From positions 1-29,621 of the IMG/VR virus record IMGVR_UViG_3300027797_000094: a DNA stretch of 29,621 bases; one strand, 5' to 3'. Below the pieces are notes generated by a model. That model worked only from the letters and a program-made list of their open reading frames with translations, made no database searches and had not been told where the DNA came from. The position numbers and the translations under genes are program-made. Position 1 is the stretch's first letter. The number at the start of each line of letters is the position of its first letter. Positions 2,674-27,650 of this stretch are shown piece by piece. The DNA is from a virus.

Positions 2674-3405
2674 CTATCTAGGTGTAATGATTTTCTTATC
2701 AGGTGTGATAAGTTTTGACTTAGGCTCTTCTTTAGACTTGCCAAAGAATGCCTTGTAATAATGTTCATCAAATGAGAACCGTTTCATATGTGGGACAACC
2801 GCTGAGGTGTCACACCATACTGGGACATCTGCCTTATCACATAGAGCGAAGAAGTATATATCTTCTCCCATAAATGATTTATTGACACCTATCTCAGTAA
2901 AGAGTGGTGCTCCAGGCACTGCTGCCTTAATCTTATCTACAACGCTTCGATGCATTAAAACGAATCCCATACCAGCAGCACCAACTTTAAGGAATTGATT
3001 TTCTGGAAGTGGATGGATACGTTTAATGCCTACGCTGTTCTCTTCATTAACAAATTCAAATACAGTTGGCATTGGAATCATTAATGGCTCTTCTGGAGTA
3101 TCTGTAGTAAAGTATACGCCCGTAAGAAGTGGCTTAGTTAAAGCATCCTTCTTCTTCCATAACTTTAAAAATACTTCAGGACTTAAAACTACATCTGAGT
3201 CTACCCATAGTAGCCAGTCAGACTTATTATTATCATACCAGTAGTTGACTGCAGTCTCACGTTGTCTACCTATTTGATTACCTTGACTTCGTAATGTAGT
3301 AGCAAACTTGATTCCAGAGTGAAGCATTACATCTGTAACACCCTGCATAAATTTTCCATCAACCATACCGTTATCGCACCAGGCGATAGATACTGTTTCT
3401 TGCAT
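2674..3405 (-). CDS. GT-A-fold glycosyltransferase-like protein
   Basis: 243 aa from an ATG at 3403-3405, preceded by AGTAGGGGACA (a good ribosome binding site, shared almost exactly with the HslV-like gene). Residues 65-71 read LLWVDSD, the DxD-type metal and nucleotide-sugar binding motif of GT-A glycosyltransferases. Upstream GRQRETAVNY (46-55) fits the nucleotide-binding region. The middle has GAAGMGFVLMHRSV, and MGEDIYFFALCDKADVPVW resembles the ED-type acceptor/catalytic segment. There is no signal peptide or membrane segment. Phage members of this group modify virion proteins, DNA or host surface sugars. Location inside the structural operon favours decoration of a virion protein, which is inference. 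Family call is good; substrate is unknown. Confidence 0.72.
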   Translation of the reverse strand: MQETVSIAWCDNGMVDGKFMQGVTDVMLHSGIKFATTLRSQGNQIGRQRETAVNYWYDNNKSDWLLWVDSDVVLSPEVFLKLWKKKDALTKPLLTGVYFTTDTPEEPLMIPMPTVFEFVNEENSVGIKRIHPLPENQFLKVGAAGMGFVLMHRSVVDKIKAAVPGAPLFTEIGVNKSFMGEDIYFFALCDKADVPVWCDTSAVVPHMKRFSFDEHYYKAFFGKSKEEPKSKLITPDKKIITPR

Positions 3406-17693: not shown

Positions 17694-19562
17694 CTATCCG
17701 TAGTATTCAGCCCATTGCTCTGCAAAGGCGTCATCTAAATTAAGTGACCCACGTTGCGCTTTCTGGGCACGTGTAGTCCAGCGATTTTGCTGATATTGAC
17801 CAACCCGACTTGACTGCTGCATAAGTTCACGCACACGAATGATTGCAAACCATAGTGCCATCACACAGTCTGTTGGGTTCTTTGTATCAGGCTTCCAAGT
17901 AATAAGCTGTTGAACCAAAGACTTTAAGCCTTCGGATCCTTCATTGCTTGGTATCTGAATAATGTTGTTGTCTTGGAAGCGTGTATCTCTAATGCTACCA
18001 AAGAGGGGAGACATAGATGCCACACCAAATCCTACGTCCCACTTGTTCTTACCAGTAAAGTGTGGATTCATCTGACATCCGTAGGATGCCAAGAAGTTGC
18101 GAAGGTCGGTATCCATCTGGTACGCCTTCTGGTGTGCGTTGATTTCAACGCGAAACTCTTGTGGTCTATATCGATCAACCCACTCTTCAATCAGAGCGCG
18201 TTCTTTCTGCGGGCTAGGTTCTGACATATTGACGCAGTCAAGAACATAAATCTTTCCATCAGATCTATTGTAGGTAACTGCTACGAAGGCGGACCTACCA
18301 GATACAGCAGGGTCAAAGCCAATAACTGTATAAGAACCCTCTACGTGCGTCGGGTGCCCTGGAGCACCTGGTTTAAGCGGTCCGCGCTTTCGCATACCGT
18401 TAATACATCCTGCAACTGCTGTTGGCGAAAAGATAGAGTCTTCTTGGATGTCTTCTTGTTGGTAGACCATAGCCCAGACAGATGATGCAACTTCAGAGCG
18501 GCGCGTAAAGAGCGAGGGTCCATCCCATTTCGGATAAAGTCCATTTGCATTAGCCTCGTCGATTTCGTTCTCTTGCTGATTGCTTTCAGGCCACAAGGTC
18601 TTCCAGTTCTTAGGGTTCTCATCGAACTCTAGAACGGCGGGCTGAGCAAAGTAAGTAAACGGGCTCTTGCCGCCAGACCATTGATCGCCACTGCGAATCA
18701 TTTTATAAAGGTCAATGGGAGCGACACGGGTTCCTACTACAAGTAATTTTCCGTGCCGTCCCAGACGTGTGATAACTTCCTTCTGAAGCCATTCAATTTG
18801 CTTCTCCCATTCGTGGGCATTTGAGTTCATCACAACATCGTCTAGGATAATCAGGTCGGCGCGGGCGCCGTAAATCTGTGACCCGAATCCTAATGCTTGC
18901 ACCGTAGGATCCTTTTCGCCAGAGTCGCGGCCAGTACCTAGGTAAATCATATCAGCAGACCATTGGGTTGCATCTGCCTTGTATCCCCCGTTAGGGCCGA
19001 AGGCCACTTGGAGTTTTGTATAAGCTGGGTGGCTAAGACGAGTCTTAATCGCACCGAGGAACTTACGAGCCATACCCTGAGTCTTAGAAACGATAATGAC
19101 TCGGGCGTTGGGATTCGTAACAATTTTATAGACGACGTAGTTCGTCGTGATGACCGTAGACTTGGCGTGCTCGGGTGGTACGTTAATCAGGACACGGTTG
19201 AGTGCGCCTTGCTCGTATGTCATCGCAGGGTGGATCCAGCGGGGCTCGCGGCCCTCTATTAGATCGTACCAGTCAAGGTGATGCTCGAAGAGCGTAGTAT
19301 CCAAGAACTGCTCGGAGAACTCAGGAAACGGAATATCTTTAAGTTCCTTCAGGTCAGCCTTGATGCCCTTACCCTCGAGGCGGGCCTTCTCGGCGCGTTC
19401 CTTGAAGTCAGGGTCTGCCATACACCATTGTCGGTAGGCTACATCTGAGCGGCCTACGGACTGCATAGCGGCCGTAATGGTCGCACCTTGCTCTAGCTGA
19501 ACTAGGACTTTTTCCTGGGCCTCCCGTTTAGGGATGGCCTGAACACCTGGTTTTCTGCCCAT
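17694..19562 (-). CDS. terL: Terminase large subunit with N-terminal HTH-like extension
   Basis: 622 aa from an ATG at 19560-19562 (AGGGGA upstream). Residues about 12-65 (EKVLVQLEQGATITAAMQSVGRSDVAYRQW...) look like a small-terminase helix-turn-helix. The ATPase follows: Walker A PPEHAKST (129-136), Walker B LIILDD (237-242) and coupling motif VVGTR (275-279). The RNase H-like nuclease domain has GFDPAVSG (Asp417), RVEINAHQ (Glu473) and a late NPTDCVMAL Asp. All landmarks of the packaging motor and headful/cos nuclease are present. No separate small terminase is seen in the window, which fits the idea that the N-terminal extension supplies DNA recognition. It is the first gene of the leftward structural operon, next to the repeat-rich divergent region. 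Confidence 0.92.
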   Translation of the reverse strand: MGRKPGVQAIPKREAQEKVLVQLEQGATITAAMQSVGRSDVAYRQWCMADPDFKERAEKARLEGKGIKADLKELKDIPFPEFSEQFLDTTLFEHHLDWYDLIEGREPRWIHPAMTYEQGALNRVLINVPPEHAKSTVITTNYVVYKIVTNPNARVIIVSKTQGMARKFLGAIKTRLSHPAYTKLQVAFGPNGGYKADATQWSADMIYLGTGRDSGEKDPTVQALGFGSQIYGARADLIILDDVVMNSNAHEWEKQIEWLQKEVITRLGRHGKLLVVGTRVAPIDLYKMIRSGDQWSGGKSPFTYFAQPAVLEFDENPKNWKTLWPESNQQENEIDEANANGLYPKWDGPSLFTRRSEVASSVWAMVYQQEDIQEDSIFSPTAVAGCINGMRKRGPLKPGAPGHPTHVEGSYTVIGFDPAVSGRSAFVAVTYNRSDGKIYVLDCVNMSEPSPQKERALIEEWVDRYRPQEFRVEINAHQKAYQMDTDLRNFLASYGCQMNPHFTGKNKWDVGFGVASMSPLFGSIRDTRFQDNNIIQIPSNEGSEGLKSLVQQLITWKPDTKNPTDCVMALWFAIIRVRELMQQSSRVGQYQQNRWTTRAQKAQRGSLNLDDAFAEQWAEYYG

Positions 19563-20037: not shown

Positions 20038-20215
20038 AATAAATGAGTGAGCAACATCACACGCCAAATGGTCAAGAGTTCGGTGAACCTATGGTATAAG
20101 CGCGACAATCCCCAAGTAGTTGAAAGTTCAACTATCTAAATGTCCGTATTCTCCCAAGATGTCCGACTTGTTCGACTTGCCCTATCTTGTACATAAATGT
20201 CCACCCTGCCCGCTT

Positions 20216-20232
20216 TGTCCTAGTCTGTCCTA
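20216..20232. repeat. Tandem TGTCCTA pair
   Basis: TGTCCTA at 20216-20222 and 20226-20232, spaced by one helical turn (10 bp). Further TGTCC copies lie near 20141, 20160 and 20198. Helically phased direct repeats are compatible with an activator or initiator binding site. The motif is short, so chance remains possible. Confidence 0.35.
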
Positions 20233-20666
20233 CTTTGTGCGCTTTTGGGTTCTTCAAGTGTGACGCACTTCACACTCACAAATCGGACAAATCACCACAA
20301 ATCACCCGCCTGGCATTTCACTCTTGCGCCTTGTTCTCTCTTTGTGTGGTAAATTTCTCTTGTGGGTTGAAAGAACCCCGAAAGATTGTGCGAGTTATCG
20401 GCTATCCGATTGACTTGTTGCTCTCTCTCTTTCGGCAGATTGTTACCCTAGAAATTTAAGAGTTCTCTCTTGCTTCTCTTGTGAACCTTTCGCGATAGCG
20501 CGGATTAGTAGCGGATAGATAGAACTCCAACCTTTCGCCTTTCGATAATTCACAAAAACCAAAGGAACGCGAGTTACGCCTTGTAAGCGTGGCAAGTGTT
20601 CTTTTCGGACGGATAGGGTTCGCGCCTTATCCGTTCACAAGTTCAACCAACCGAAAGGATAGACAA

Positions 20667-21401: not shown

Positions 21402-22730
21402 ATGGATAATGACGAGAAGGCGTTGTGCTTTAATTGTGAAGGTTACTTTGATGTAGACGATTTACGCTCTCACCTAGACAAGTTCGTGTGTGTTGAGTGT
21501 TCGTGTTACTGTGAGGACTGTCGTGATTTAATCATCAAGCAGGACTCTATTTACTTTGAGGGCAACGGCGAGTGGTATTGTACAAATTGTGCGATAGTTT
21601 GCGAGCGTTGTAATAACGGCGAAAGAAGCGACTCTTACCGAGTTGTAAGCGGTGAGTATTGGTGCGAGGATTGCGCTGATAATCGCTCGTTCTATTGCGC
21701 TGGTTGCGAGGAGTCACACAGTAGTTCCTACGATAGTTACTATGTTCGTGACGACTCTCTATGCGAGAGTTGCTACGAGGCTTCGGCGTACTACTGTGAG
21801 GATTGCGAGGAACACTTCTATGATGACGACCCTTGCGATTGTCGCGAGGACGGCGGTAGCGGTAGTGGTAATCGTCTAGGTTGTTGCGGTAATCGTGGCT
21901 TCATACATCAGTATAGTTGCAAGCCTGAACTTCAATTCAAGGGTGAGTCTAAGCGCGGTTTGTTCTTCGGTATAGAGTTAGAAACTCAGATACGGACAAA
22001 GAATAATAACGGGCTAGAAGGCGCAAGTGAATTCGCAAGTAACGCACTCAAAGATATTGCTATCCTTAAACACGACTCTAGTATAGGTCGTGACGGATAC
22101 GCAGGGTTTGAGATAGTTACTCAACCGCACACACATACGCAGTATCGTGATAACTCACAAGTTCTGTGGGATACCATAGATAAATTGCGTACTGATTATG
22201 AAGCAAGGTCGTGGGATACTACGAGTTGCGGATTACACATACACATTAGTCGCGCTGGCTTCAGTAGTGGCGCACACTTACACCGATTTATCTCACTCGT
22301 CTACCATAATGCCGAGATGATGATGAAGTTCGCAGGTCGTAAGTCTGACTATGCTAGGTTCAATGATGTCTATACCTTCAACGAGTACGACAAGCCTGTG
22401 TTCTCGTTAAAGCACAAGGTCGGCGACCCTAGACAATACTCAAGTGAGCGTTTCTCTGCGGTCAATACGCAGAACAGAACGACTATTGAACTCAGGTTCT
22501 TTAGGGGCACTATGAACCCGAAGGGTGTTCTATCTGCTCTCGACCTTGCTCACTCTATGGTGGAATACACTAGAGAGTTACGCCTAGATGATGTTAAACT
22601 AGGCGCACTATCGTGGACTTGGTTCTGCGATTATGTCGAGTCCAACAACGGACTCTATCCTGATTTGTATGAGCGACTAGGTAAGGTTGCGAGTACGAAC
22701 ATCAACAAACCAACAATGATGAACGCGTAA
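21402..22730 (+). CDS. Cys-rich amidoligase (Amidoligase_2-like)
   Basis: 442 aa with a strong AAAGGAAGGGGG ribosome binding site. Residues 1-175 are Cys-rich with repeated CxxC pairs (Cys9/12, 30/33, 37/40, 60/63, 67/70, 88/91, 99/102, 121/124, 132/135), a string of zinc-ribbon or treble-clef-like knuckles. Residues about 185-400 have the signatures of COOH-NH2 ligases related to gamma-glutamylcysteine/glutamine synthetases: FFGIELETQ (metal-binding Glu pair), KHDSSIGRDGYAGFEIVTQP, GLHIHIS and IELRFFRGTMNP. Such enzymes use ATP to join a carboxylate to an amine. The next gene, 11 bases on, is a glutamine amidotransferase with its own Cys-rich tail, so the two probably act together. Substrate (host protein, cell-wall peptide or small molecule) is unknown. 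Confidence 0.8.
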   Translation: MDNDEKALCFNCEGYFDVDDLRSHLDKFVCVECSCYCEDCRDLIIKQDSIYFEGNGEWYCTNCAIVCERCNNGERSDSYRVVSGEYWCEDCADNRSFYCAGCEESHSSSYDSYYVRDDSLCESCYEASAYYCEDCEEHFYDDDPCDCREDGGSGSGNRLGCCGNRGFIHQYSCKPELQFKGESKRGLFFGIELETQIRTKNNNGLEGASEFASNALKDIAILKHDSSIGRDGYAGFEIVTQPHTHTQYRDNSQVLWDTIDKLRTDYEARSWDTTSCGLHIHISRAGFSSGAHLHRFISLVYHNAEMMMKFAGRKSDYARFNDVYTFNEYDKPVFSLKHKVGDPRQYSSERFSAVNTQNRTTIELRFFRGTMNPKGVLSALDLAHSMVEYTRELRLDDVKLGALSWTWFCDYVESNNGLYPDLYERLGKVASTNINKPTMMNA

Positions 22731-22741
22731 GGGGTGATAGT

Positions 22742-23596
22742 ATGTGTCTATTAGTAGTGTGTGAACCTAACTCTACACCAAGTAGAGATGATTTACACGC
22801 TGGTGCTTGTAGTAATCCGCACGGCTATGGCTTTGCTATCCACGCAGGGGATAAGATTATCTCAGAGCGTGGTATGTCGGCAAAGAAAATAATCAAGCGG
22901 TTCTTAGAGTTGCGTAAGCAGTACCCTAATGGGTACGCTATGTGGCACGCTAGGTATGCTACACACGGAGTAAAGAACGAGCAGAATTGCCACCCATTTA
23001 TTGTAGGTGGTGACGAGCAGACTTATCTAGCACACAATGGTGTATTAGATATTAACATAGCCGACAATGATAGAAGGTCGGACACTAGAGTATTCGCAGA
23101 GGATACTCTGCCTGCTATGGGTGGCGTTACAGTATTAGATGATGATAATGTATTCCACATCTTACAGAAGTGGGCAGGTGGTAGCAAGATTGCGGTACTA
23201 ACTACCGACCCCAAAGCGCAGTACCCTATGTACCTACTCAATGAGAACTTGGGTACTTGGGACGACAAGGGTGTATGGTGGTCAAACAATTCGCACAAGC
23301 GCACAACTGTGGTCAAAGCAACGACTGCTACCTACCCTAACTACTGGGAGAAGCAAGAAAAAGATTATGATTACAACGATGAATTGCTCAAGTATTACAA
23401 GGCTTTAGAAGAAGGTGACACGATAGATATGGAGGTGTGTATATTCTGCGAAGCCATTGTAGATTTCACGGAGAACCCATACTATTGTACAATGTGTGAG
23501 TCCTGCTACGATTGTGAGCAGGTCATAACAGATTGTCTATGCTACACACCTGATAGGGTGTGGAAATCCAAGCAGTCCTTTGAGGATATGCTATAA
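22742..23596 (+). CDS. Class II glutamine amidotransferase with Cys-rich tail
   Basis: 284 aa. Cys2 directly follows Met1, the N-terminal nucleophile of class II (Ntn) glutamine amidotransferases. Supporting motifs: SNPHGYGFAI (24-33), MWHARYATHGVKNEQNCHPF (68-86) and YLAHNGVL (95-102), with RSDTRVFAE (112-120) as in GATase II proteins that act on gamma-glutamyl amides. The C-terminus (233-268) has CIFCEA, CTMCESCYDCE and CLC: a zinc-binding cluster like the N-terminal knuckles of the preceding amidoligase. The gene follows the amidoligase by 11 bases in the same operon. Known family chemistry is release of ammonia from glutamine or cleavage of gamma-glutamyl amides. Whether it feeds or reverses the amidoligase is not decidable from sequence. 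Confidence 0.84.
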   Translation: MCLLVVCEPNSTPSRDDLHAGACSNPHGYGFAIHAGDKIISERGMSAKKIIKRFLELRKQYPNGYAMWHARYATHGVKNEQNCHPFIVGGDEQTYLAHNGVLDINIADNDRRSDTRVFAEDTLPAMGGVTVLDDDNVFHILQKWAGGSKIAVLTTDPKAQYPMYLLNENLGTWDDKGVWWSNNSHKRTTVVKATTATYPNYWEKQEKDYDYNDELLKYYKALEEGDTIDMEVCIFCEAIVDFTENPYYCTMCESCYDCEQVITDCLCYTPDRVWKSKQSFEDML

Positions 23597-23651: not shown

Positions 23652-23918
23652 ATGTCCAACACAGATACAATTCTCGGCTTAGCCGAGGAACTGCGAGTAA
23701 TCGCAGATGAAATCGCTTACAACACCTATGCGGAGTCAACAGACTTCACAAAGCGTGGCACTATCGTCAAGGCTAAAGAAGTTCAGAACCGCTTCAAGCC
23801 TAAGTCAATGTGGGTTTCACTCGGAGACGGCACATACAAGCACATCACAGGTAAGAAGGGCTTAGTTACTAAGCAGTCACGCCTTGATGGGTTCGTAGAT
23901 GTGGTGTTCGAAGCGTAA
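23652..23918 (+). CDS. Hypothetical 88-aa protein
   Basis: ATG at 23652 after GAGAGGGTAAT. The first half is an acidic helix (TILGLAEELRVIADEIAYNTYAE). The second half is beta-like and basic: KRGTIVKAKEVQNRF, SMWVSLGDGTYKHITGKKGLV and DGFVDVVFEA. No Cys and no membrane segment. It overlaps the next gene by one base (TAATG). No family recognised. It is the first gene after the promoter candidate, so may be the lead gene of the lysis-side transcript. Confidence 0.6.
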   Translation: MSNTDTILGLAEELRVIADEIAYNTYAESTDFTKRGTIVKAKEVQNRFKPKSMWVSLGDGTYKHITGKKGLVTKQSRLDGFVDVVFEA

Positions 23919-24290: not shown

Positions 24291-24407
24291 TTGGAGTTAA
24301 CTAGATTTATATTTATCTTCAGTATCATTGCCTTATTGGGTGGTGTTACTCCGCTAGGTATAATATTTTTCTTGTTCGTACTTTACATACTAGGTATAAT
24401 GTTATGA
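24291..24407 (+). CDS. 38-aa hydrophobic peptide, holin-like candidate
   Basis: TTG start at 24291 with AGAAAGGATAGTA just upstream. The stop overlaps the WhiB start as ATGA. Apart from the first four residues (one Glu, one Arg) the peptide is almost wholly hydrophobic, in two stretches separated by GGVTPLG: FIFIFSIIALL and IIFFLFVLYILGIML. Two membrane passes in a hairpin, or one long one, are possible. It lies two genes before the cell-wall lytic enzyme in the same coupled operon, where a holin would be expected, but it is shorter than most holins. A tiny regulatory membrane peptide is the alternative. Confidence 0.5.
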   Translation: MELTRFIFIFSIIALLGGVTPLGIIFFLFVLYILGIML

Positions 24408-24724
24408 ATGGATTATGTACGGGTCATAGTGACCCTGACCTATGGTTCTCAGACACATTGGAAACTGTAGGTAGTGGTAGTGTTCCTAGAGCACAGCAGA
24501 TTGCTATGCTTAAACGAGCACGACAAGCACTGGCAATTTGTAATAAGTGTCCTATCATTAAGGAATGCTTAGAAGAAGGTATGAAGAGTGAGAATGTTGA
24601 CTGGGGTATTTGGGGTGGCACACTATCAGGCGAGCGACTTCTTATCAAAAGAAAGACAGTCAAAGGTACTGATCGAATAAGGAAAGTACACTTCGCACAT
24701 AGAGTGAGAGGAACACAACAATGA
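24404..24724 (+). CDS. whiB: WhiB-family iron-sulphur transcription factor
   Basis: 106 aa, ATGA overlaps at both ends. Four conserved cysteines bind a 4Fe-4S cluster: Cys5, then Cys46-x2-Cys49-x5-Cys55. Other landmarks are DPDLWF (10-15) after Cys5 and the G[VI]WGG turn at 68-72 (GIWGGT), followed by a basic C-terminal tail (RLLIKRKTVKG). WhiB proteins occur only in Actinobacteria and their phages and act with the principal sigma factor. Phage copies such as mycobacteriophage TM4 WhiB repress host whiB2 and affect division and superinfection. Here it is translationally coupled to a hydrophobic peptide and to the transglycosylase, so it may time or modulate the late/lysis programme. It is the best host clue in the window. 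Confidence 0.93.
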   Translation: MNGLCTGHSDPDLWFSDTLETVGSGSVPRAQQIAMLKRARQALAICNKCPIIKECLEEGMKSENVDWGIWGGTLSGERLLIKRKTVKGTDRIRKVHFAHRVRGTQQ

Positions 24725-25119
24725 GAGTAATGATTTTCTTACTGCTTATCATTGGCGCAATGCTGAAGTTCGGACAACAAGTAAATGAACCTACACCACC
24801 GATGGGAACGGTAGAGATTCAACAGACTTGGACTGTCACGGACAGTAAGGCATACGCACAAGATAGGCTGAAAGAATGGCAACAAAAGCAGTGGTCTTGC
24901 CTTAACAGATTGTGGGGTAAAGAATCAGCGTGGAATCCTGATGCTTATAATAGCATTAAGGTAATGGGGAGAAACGCTGGTGGAATACCACAACTGTTAG
25001 GGCTTGACCCTGCCACACCAGCCACGCGTCAGATTGAGCGCGGCTTGGATTACATTTACTACAGATACGGAACTCCTTGCGAGGCTTGGAAGTTCTTTAC
25101 AAAGAATGGGTGGCACTAA
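24721..25119 (+). CDS. Membrane-anchored transglycosylase-like lysin
   Basis: 132 aa, start overlapping the whiB stop (ATGA). Residues 1-15 (MRVMIFLLLIIGAML) form a signal anchor or secretion signal without an obvious cleavage site. The domain at about 58-132 has LWGKESAWNPDAYN (Glu68 as probable catalytic acid), GGIPQLLGLDPATPA and QIERGLDYIYYRYGTPCEAWKFF, ending in NGWH. This is the layout of the short SLT/Rpf-related transglycosylase domains of actinobacterial phages and secreted proteins. It would cleave peptidoglycan from outside the membrane at lysis. There is no cell-wall binding repeat. Secretion by its own signal would make it partly independent of a holin, like SAR or signal-bearing endolysins. 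Confidence 0.78.
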   Translation: MRVMIFLLLIIGAMLKFGQQVNEPTPPMGTVEIQQTWTVTDSKAYAQDRLKEWQQKQWSCLNRLWGKESAWNPDAYNSIKVMGRNAGGIPQLLGLDPATPATRQIERGLDYIYYRYGTPCEAWKFFTKNGWH

Positions 25120-25682: not shown

Positions 25683-26260
25683 TGTCACTACAAAACTTAA
25701 CTGAGATAGATTTGTTTAATCTTCTTAGAAAGAATCTATACAATGATTTAGTTCACGTAACTAATGATGAGTACTCTGCTAGCGATGCGTTCTCTATCGA
25801 GCACGGCATATATGTAGAACTCAAATGTCGTAGGGCCCACTACCCCGACCTTATGATTGAGAAATTAAAGTATGATAGACTCAAGGCTGAGGCAGATAAA
25901 CTCGGTGTAACACCACTGTATATCTGCTCAACGCCTAAGGGTATATGGGAGTTCAACCTTGACCTAATCAAGATTGACTGGTTCAACAAAGATGATTTGC
26001 CTGCTACAACAGAGTTCGACAATAAAGAAAAGATAACAAAGGAGATAGGCTTAATCCTTATTGACAAGGGTAAACCTATTCTTCCTTGGTATCCTGACTA
26101 TGATAGTGAAGATCAATTCATTAACGAGTCAATGACTGCCTTCGCTGAGGATATGTATGTAGACCCAGCAGAAGCAGGACTCTTTGATGATAGTCTATTA
26201 CTAACTGATGAAGAGATACTTGCCGTTGAGGAAGAAGATGAACCACTACAGTTCAACTGA
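25682..26260 (+). CDS. PD-(D/E)XK-like nuclease candidate
   Basis: 192 aa from the ATG at 25682, preceded by ACAGGAGGATA. The first 100 residues carry a likely restriction-like nuclease core: SASDAF (Asp35), then IYVELKCR (Glu46-x-Lys48), the D...ExK signature, followed by a helix LMIEKLKYDRLKAEADKLG and a strand TPLYICS. The last 40 residues are very acidic (DEEILAVEEEDEP). Phage enzymes with this core resolve junctions or degrade host DNA. The gene ends the rightward operon and its tail overlaps the convergent sigma-factor gene by 15 bases. The nuclease call rests on short motifs. Confidence 0.6.
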   Translation: MSLQNLTEIDLFNLLRKNLYNDLVHVTNDEYSASDAFSIEHGIYVELKCRRAHYPDLMIEKLKYDRLKAEADKLGVTPLYICSTPKGIWEFNLDLIKIDWFNKDDLPATTEFDNKEKITKEIGLILIDKGKPILPWYPDYDSEDQFINESMTAFAEDMYVDPAEAGLFDDSLLLTDEEILAVEEEDEPLQFN

Positions 26261-26932
26261 TTCATCTTGTTCTCCTTCAACTTCTTTATCAGGTCGATCA
26301 ATATCTTGATAAGGTCGGAATCCACCGATCTTGTTAATAAGTTTACGTACCGCTCTAGTGGCACGCATACGCACGGCATCGCTGCTGCCAGCATTTAATT
26401 CAGTAGCAATGTCTGCGAACTCCATAGATTCTGCATATCGGAGGAAGAGTAACCTTCTATCCTGGTCATTTAACTTCCGATATGCATTATCTATTTCAAC
26501 CATCATCGCCTGCAAATTTCCACCTTCTGCTGGAGCACTCGGTCTCCCTGGTCTACCGAGATTCAACTTATGAGTTACACCCCACTCGCCACGTAACACA
26601 GGTGGCAGTAGTGCTTCTACTACATCGGGTTCGTAATAATATAAATCACTTTGATCATACCCAAGACTCTTAGCTTTCCAGTACTGACAGTAATCTATAG
26701 CCCTGTTCCGCAAGGAACGATAGATTAAATTCTTTGCATCCTTCTTATCGATGAGTTCCCAATCAGATAGATTGTTTGCGTGCATAGGGAACCACTCATA
26801 CAATGCTTGCTTTATATCTTCTAGTTCAACCATCTCGTACTTTTTATGGTACTCAGATGCTACGTGAACTACTATAAATTCCCAAGGTTCAATGCGTGAC
26901 CAGTCCACGCTACCACTTCCAAGTCTTGCCAT
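26246..26932 (-). CDS. Phage sigma-factor-like protein (sigma-70 regions 2 and 4)
   Basis: 228 aa using the ATG at 26930-26932 (MARLGSGSVDW); a TTG 24 bases upstream would add eight residues. Residues about 20-110 resemble region 2: DIKQALYEWF, then KNLIYRSLRNRAIDYCQYWKA. After a Gly/Pro-rich linker, residues about 145-205 resemble region 4: AYRKLNDQDRRLLFLRYAES, then FADIATELNAGSSDAVRMRA, a helix-turn-helix that contacts -35 DNA, and RAVRKLI. The C-terminal tail is acidic. This is the two-domain ECF-like layout seen in actinophages. It would redirect host RNA polymerase to phage promoters. It overlaps the phosphoesterase gene by 23 bases and is tail-to-tail with the nuclease gene. Confidence 0.75.
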   Translation of the reverse strand: MARLGSGSVDWSRIEPWEFIVVHVASEYHKKYEMVELEDIKQALYEWFPMHANNLSDWELIDKKDAKNLIYRSLRNRAIDYCQYWKAKSLGYDQSDLYYYEPDVVEALLPPVLRGEWGVTHKLNLGRPGRPSAPAEGGNLQAMMVEIDNAYRKLNDQDRRLLFLRYAESMEFADIATELNAGSSDAVRMRATRAVRKLINKIGGFRPYQDIDRPDKEVEGEQDESVEL

Positions 26933-27650
26933 CGACAGTGAATGATCTATTAACAATCGGTACTAGTTGTGGCACAACACTCTTGCCATCAACGTGTAAG
27001 ATACCAAAGCCTTGTTGCCACGTAAACAACCCTGCTTTAATATACTTTGCATTCTTATAATCCATTAAGTTGCCAAGTTCCATACCCCATACAGTCTTAG
27101 GTGTACCGCCACGATACGCCTGTGTGTGGTGTGTAAGACCCATACGGTGCGTGTGTCCACAGACTACACTCATACCTGAACGCTTGGCTAAGCCCAATGC
27201 GGTGGCTCCTGCGGTAGGCTGTACGTTACCTTCATCACCGTGCATAAGTAACCAACCAGGTGCTAGTTCATATGGATCTTTGTGATACTTAATCTCTAAC
27301 TCATCAAGCCCAAGGAAATTTTCTAATTGCAATTCGGGTAAACCCAGTAGTCCAGGTGCACGCATAGCAACAGTGTTAAACAATCTATCTGTATGATTAC
27401 TTCTAACCATATGCTCAACAGTTAAGTCATAAAGTACTTGTCTTGTTGTATCACGGTCACGTCCTATTGACCGCTCAAACTCCAACTCCGTACCCTTACT
27501 CCACTTACTGATTGTCTGCATATCCATTTCATCACCACAGGATACAACTGTATCAGGTTGGTACGCCTTAATGAACTTTGAGATTGCCTTCACGGCTTCT
27601 ACGTCGTGATATGGTACCTGCAAATCTGATATGCAAACGATTGTTTTCAT
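26910..27650 (-). CDS. Calcineurin-like metallophosphoesterase
   Basis: 246 aa; GGAGATAACACA precedes the ATG. Metallophosphoesterase motifs are in order: SDLQVPYHD (Asp9; Gln11 stands where His is usual), CGDEMD (Asp40), RSNHTD (Asn85, His86), LMHGDEG (His137) and CGHTHRM (His166, His168). The Gln variant is common among phage members that start SDxQxP. No signal peptide. Substrates of this family range from DNA ends and RNA caps to cyclic nucleotides. The replication-side location suggests nucleic acid processing or removal of defence signals, which is inference. Confidence 0.86.
   Translation of the reverse strand: MKTIVCISDLQVPYHDVEAVKAISKFIKAYQPDTVVSCGDEMDMQTISKWSKGTELEFERSIGRDRDTTRQVLYDLTVEHMVRSNHTDRLFNTVAMRAPGLLGLPELQLENFLGLDELEIKYHKDPYELAPGWLLMHGDEGNVQPTAGATALGLAKRSGMSVVCGHTHRMGLTHHTQAYRGGTPKTVWGMELGNLMDYKNAKYIKAGLFTWQQGFGILHVDGKSVVPQLVPIVNRSFTVDGKTWKW

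Follow-up and report, generated by a model that had tools for sequence, protein, structure and literature searches.

Adjacent genes for an amidoligase and a class II glutamine amidotransferase (GATase) are widespread in phages, with recorded hosts in Mycobacterium, Rhizobium, Pseudomonas, Acinetobacter and the methylotrophs, and they are predicted to form a cell-wall modification or superinfection system (PMC10580990, PMC5498523, PMC3890496). The cassette of phiEco32, LUZ24, UFV-P2, RIO-1 and PSA-HP1 places an Amidoligase_2 protein beside a class II GATase among early or replication-side genes and adds to them a COOH-NH2 ligase, a RimK-like ATP-grasp protein and a gamma-glutamyl cyclotransferase. 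Genes for amidoligase, GATase, ATP-grasp and cyclotransferase are all present in UFV-P2 and LUZ24, and in these two and in Rhizobium phages the pair sits in the same part of the genome with RimK-like and other amide ligases. In RIO-1-like phages the same enzymes belong to a seven-gene "peptidoglycan modification cassette" (PMC5498523). The pair is also carried by OM43 phages, and in the Methylophilales phages MEP401 and MEP402 the amidoligase adjoins the GATase (PMC10580990).

Two proposals of function are cited in PMC10580990: cell-wall modification against superinfection for the phiEco32 pair (Iyer 2009) and the making of secondary metabolites for the pair of the mycobacteriophage Marvin (Mageeney 2012). 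The former is stated as fact in one paper, but the source cited there is a computational study. No experimental test of the function, product or target of any member of the pair was found in the literature available.

The locus considered here lies in a virus record of 29,621 bases (IMGVR_UViG_3300027797_000094), a 29.6 kb fragment that I will refer to in its entirety as the window. Terminase, portal and head genes occupy its minus strand, and the pair falls within a block of plus-strand genes from about 20.6 to 26.3 kb. A glycosyltransferase-like gene (2674-3405; phrog_34859, E 4e-77) stands among the structural genes, and a metallophosphoesterase gene (phrog_221, E 4e-79) lies at 26910-27650. 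The features of the pair are:

21402..22730, plus strand: amidoligase gene, 442 aa, with an N-terminal Cys-rich module and a core of glutamine-synthetase fold
21426..21842, plus strand: N-terminal Cys-rich module of the ligase (residues 9-147), a LIM-like series of CxxC hairpins that probably binds zinc
21951..22727, plus strand: ligase core (residues 184-442), with motifs GxExE, KxDxS, FEIV, GxHxH and ExRFFRGT
22728..22741, plus strand: junction, with a Shine-Dalgarno-like AAGGGG that overlaps the ligase stop and precedes the GATase ATG
22742..23596, plus strand: class II GATase (Ntn hydrolase) gene, 284 aa, assigned by PF13522, PF13230 and a structural model
22742..23287, plus strand: glutaminase domain (residues 1-182), with Cys2 nucleophile, R71, N99-G100 and D114
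23438..23542, plus strand: C-terminal 8-Cys tail of the GATase (residues 233-267), CxxC-x12-CxxC-xx-CxxC-x6-CxC

A preliminary description of the window, made from its letters, had proposed two adjacent genes separated by 11 bases, an amidoligase and a GATase, and this is exactly what is found, with both genes on the same strand. The motifs it named are also in place: GIELE at residue 190, GLHIHIS at 277 and ELRFFRGT at 363 in the ligase, and Cys2, RYATHG at 71 and AHNG at 97 in the GATase, to which SDT at 113 may be added. It had further ranked the pair as the most likely undescribed system of the stretch, a judgment that does not survive comparison with the literature, since the phage cassette has already been published and Marvin (Marvinvirus) gp105 and gp106 have the same architecture. 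As in the window, the Marvin amidoligase and GATase genes are adjacent, the N-terminus of the ligase bears several CxxC motifs and the GATase ends in the same 8-Cys tail. The proteins are 31% and 33.5% identical to their counterparts in the window. Marvin differs in its shorter module of CxxC knuckles, an extra C-terminal domain on the ligase and a gap of 79 bases rather than 11. The window pair is adjacent like that of the phiEco32/LUZ24-type cassette, but the LUZ24 ligase lacks a knuckle module. MEP401 has a long ligase N-terminus with only two CxxC and a GATase devoid of a Cys tail.

The ligase of the window matches Amidoligase_2 (PF12224) over residues 230-385 (E 5.8e-7; 30.1 bits, gathering cut-off 22), as do its relatives above the same cut-off, and it matches phrog_2443, "amidoligase enzyme," at E 6e-11. 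In the AlphaFold2 model (mean pLDDT 84), the core of residues 184-442 takes the glutamine-synthetase superfold, closest to YbdK (VIA Z 12.7), then to glutamine synthetases (about 11.5) and Dop (about 10). Eleven residues (G190, E192, E194, D225, S227, E237, H279, H281, N355, E363 and R365) are invariant in 30 members of the clade, and the same motif residues are invariant in nine very distant phage ligases as well. The protein is thus a member of Amidoligase_2 by profile and modeled fold, as had been claimed, with predicted ATP-dependent activity. Nearly every member of the clade has a ligase that ends in (N)A (residues 440-442 in the window; 22719-22727).

The GATase passes the profile of GATase_6 (PF13522; E 3.3e-7, 30.8 bits, cut-off 27) and exceeds the gathering score of GATase_4 (PF13230; E 2e-5). 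Its model (pLDDT 78, low in the tail) finds the glutaminase domain of GlmS first (E 1e-7), followed by PurF and EgtC. C2, R71, N99, G100 and D114 are invariant in 30 relatives and nine distant phage GATases. Profile, pocket residues and model agree with the preliminary assignment to the class II glutaminases, and glutaminase activity is predicted. Because the motif residues of both enzymes are invariant in 30 clade members and nine distant phages, both active sites look intact and the two proteins are presumably active.

The linkage of the two genes was examined from both sides. Starting from the GATase, the ligase is directly upstream in 75 of 76 viral loci, and the remaining contig starts inside the GATase. 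Starting from the ligase, the GATase lies 3-19 bases downstream in all 80 loci. The strict co-occurrence that had been anticipated therefore holds in the clade of the window, although these counts are not independent events, as the contigs share seeds and ancestry. Of the two outcomes named beforehand as refutations, a failed profile placement of the ligase core and a rare pairing of the genes, neither occurred. For more distant ligases, a same-strand GATase is present no farther than 4 kb away in 69 of 73 and in 53 of 61 distinct cases. Several exceptions occur where a contig ends, but a clostridial group truly lacks a GATase within 4 kb, which suggests that a ligase of this fold need not have such a partner. 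The pair is adjacent in distant phages too (Marvin, MEP401, ctgrD200 and AciJM_313), and no fusion of the two was found among 325 ligase and 308 GATase ORFs. A genome collection gave one close match, in a Rhodobacteraceae MAG on a 3.3 kb contig of probable phage origin, and two weak matches without a ligase. Three loci (L261, L264 and L269) have two amidoligase genes around a single GATase.

I tentatively favor, at somewhat short of an even chance, the view that the pair draws on glutamine to amidate a host carboxylate, most probably that of a cell-wall precursor peptide. The N-terminal cysteine of the GATase would hydrolyze glutamine and so supply ammonia, while the ligase, like glutamine synthetase, would use ATP to activate the carboxylate and yield an amide. 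The likeliest substrate would be the cytosolic precursor of the host's cell-wall peptide, and the purpose may be to change the envelope during infection, for example against superinfecting phages. MurT-GatD and LtsA/AsnB resemble the proposed pair in outline, combining glutamine-derived ammonia with an ATP-activated carboxylate, but neither is related to the ligase. MurT is a relative of Mur ligases, and its partner GatD is a class I glutaminase, of a different type. LtsA/AsnB also differs, in being a single chain that includes an asparagine-synthetase domain (PMC3267633, PMC3885529). A precedent for an effect on phage is asnH of Lactobacillus casei, responsible for glutamine-dependent wall amidation, whose disruption lowered the sensitivity of the cells to phage J1 about 10^4-fold (PMC3885529). 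Besides this precedent and the published proposals, amidation of the wall draws support from the family and fold of the enzymes, their invariant residues, their linkage and a neighbor that resembles peptidoglycan hydrolases. The clostridial ligases without a nearby GATase, and the finding of no natural fusion of the two proteins, count against it. Genes downstream of the pair include:

23652..23918, plus strand: small gene, 88 aa, conserved downstream of the ligase at 148 of 157 loci of the window clade
24404-24724: WhiB-like regulator gene, present in 144 of 157 loci
24721..25119, plus strand: peptidoglycan-hydrolase-like gene (AggPromo_Cterm / transglycosylase-like; NF052397, E 2e-17; phrog_12661 "transglycosylase," E 1.9e-21)
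26246-26956: sigma-factor-like protein gene

The 88-aa gene, which comes right after the GATase, may belong to the operon as a third member. The hydrolase-like gene occurs in 144 of 157 loci, mostly downstream on the same strand, and the phage-encoded WhiB-like regulator suggests an actinobacterial host. Both neighbors may merely share a strand block with the pair. An anti-phage defense function was considered and dropped, there being no PADLOC matches.

The accompanying enzymes of the phiEco32/LUZ24-type cassette were not detected in eight near-complete relatives of the window phage. Searches with the Pfam RimK and COOH-NH2 ligase profiles were uninformative, since they missed the positive-control phages, so phmmer was used with queries from LUZ24 and a Rhizobium phage, which connect these two phages with one another at E 4e-33 and 3e-26. 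These queries turned up no ATP-grasp protein, COOH-NH2 ligase or cyclotransferase in the eight genomes (39-41 kb), and a Pfam search for GGCT in the genomes of the clade came back empty. Judged by those eight relatives (the window record itself being a fragment), the clade of the window appears to have a two-enzyme version of the amidoligase/GATase system. The pair is then of a known kind, with a close relative that has a name, and the part worth recording is the two-gene subtype found in about a hundred viral contigs, with LIM-like knuckles on the ligase and apparently without the accompanying ligases and cyclotransferase. As far as the available literature shows, this part is newer. Being compact, and having in Marvin a close relative that grows on laboratory M. 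smegmatis, the two-gene version opens the long-standing cell-wall proposal to a direct test.

The Cys-rich clusters that had been claimed for both proteins lie far beyond chance and are conserved in 30 homologues. Residues 1-175 of the ligase contain 24 cysteines and nine CxxC, a number reached by none of 20,000 shuffles (maximum five), and among 30 divergent homologues 13 of the cysteines are invariant and three nearly so. Sequence matches of the module to LIM, PHD and FYVE zinc domains are weak: those in the PDB have E 0.04 or worse, and there is none to a Pfam zinc domain at E up to 1, so that it does not belong to LIM by sequence profile. Foldseek matches it to pairs of LIM domains at E 2e-3 to 1e-2, with low TM. 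The module is probably LIM-like rather than LIM proper, and probably binds zinc. In the GATase tail all eight cysteines (233, 236, 249, 252, 255, 258, 265 and 267) are invariant in 30 relatives and align in Marvin gp106, and no shuffle out of 20,000 equaled its four CxxC. Neither the N-terminal module nor the tail, used alone as a query, found a match in the named phages. The number of CxxC in the ligase is 4 to 10 within the clade of the window and Marvin and ranges from 0 to 26 over the wider set. At the extreme, the L227 ligase packs 41 Cys and 26 CxxC into the 178 residues ahead of its core, and it has an untailed GATase as its neighbor. The N-termini of the ligases of L282, L296, L298 and L302 are acidic and repeat-like with few Cys and look like a degenerate, Cys-less knuckle module, relatives such as L280 being knuckled.

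The clusters had also been called matching, as if both proteins docked on one partner or on each other. The resemblance in pattern stands, though nothing beyond pattern: the two are weakly alike by hhalign, with a probability of 23% as against 0.1-0.3% for reversed controls. Thirty-one of 33 tails with at least two CxxC adjoin knuckled ligases (70% clustering; one lineage excepted), as expected if the modules bind each other or a common partner and so build an enzyme complex, but 17 of 48 knuckled ligases are paired with an untailed GATase. I set aside strict pairing of the modules as evidence of docking (Fisher p 8e-6 at 70% clustering, p 0.03 at 50%) and do not rely on the correlation, because it comes down to about four independent events on the tree; its supported branches give only four independent comparisons, none of them significant. 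In the tree of 88 ligase cores, knuckles are more widespread than the 8-Cys tail, which is confined to one clade of 32 rows, Marvin included. The GATases of MEP401, AciJM_313 and ctgrD200 are linked to a ligase yet have no tail, and the lineage of L282, L296 and L322 combines a shorter tail with a ligase devoid of knuckles, the knuckles apparently having been lost. Since 17 rows have knuckles without tail and these three have tail without knuckles, the two modules are separable. Evolution, as read from the sequences, thus lends little support to obligatory mutual docking, and I regard a complex built by the two modules as improbable.

For amidation of the wall precursor, the LIM-like knuckles of the ligase and the clade-specific tail of the GATase would most probably anchor the enzymes to a partner protein or to the substrate, and these zinc-like modules offer a handle toward finding the partner. 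The usual ligands of LIM-like modules are proteins or nucleic acids, which suits a protein target equally well and tells against the wall alone. The main rival, unlikely in my estimation though ahead of the others, is accordingly modification of a protein: the ligase would form an amide or isopeptide bond in the manner of PafA on a protein bound by the knuckles, and the GATase would feed ammonia or, as a gamma-glutamyl amidase, remove the modification. The core shares its superfold with PafA and Dop, but is no nearer to them than to YbdK or glutamine synthetase. The match of the GATase to EgtC, an Ntn hydrolase that acts on gamma-glutamyl amides, fits this rival, as does a knuckle count as variable (0 to 26 CxxC) as expected of a targeting part. 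Near the gene in the window clade, however, no Pup-like substrates or substrates with conserved tails were seen.

A small-molecule product, either an amidated or gamma-glutamyl compound or a hypermodified DNA base, seems doubtful to me. YbdK, the best structural match of the ligase, is a carboxylate-amine ligase, and the GATase resembles GlmS and PurF. The secondary-metabolite proposal for the Marvin pair, as cited in PMC10580990, points the same way. On the other hand, a ligase rich in knuckles would be odd as a small-molecule enzyme, and a non-systematic look at the ORFs noticed no base-modification gene. I give a similarly low probability to the idea that the two-gene version with knuckles forms a system apart with a target of its own, in which the LIM-like array would recruit the ligase to a host macromolecule (such as the ribosome, RNA polymerase or the cell-division machinery) and a carboxylate would be amidated there. 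If true, this would be a phage takeover modification of a kind not yet described.

In the window clade, no C-terminal tail that might mark substrates was found to be shared by proteins encoded around the ligase; the only cases were two Rhizobium phages and one contig. Rhizobium phage RHph_N3_19 (L353; MN988527) encodes at least 16 different small proteins that end in a near-identical Q-x-GD(T/R)-acidic-DI, many of them with a start of VGDxV type (examples at 19060-19314, 20111-20368 and 22072-22335), and RHph_N3_13 (L352) does likewise. Several of those in RHph_N3_19 flank the amidoligase, ATP-grasp and GATase genes, and the DNA of the tail varies at synonymous sites. The tail could be a tag for targeting or for recognition as a ligase substrate. 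In contig L277 (2437-4533), three neighboring paralogues beside the amidoligase have a common C-terminal tail, ED-A-(L/F)-ASLD.
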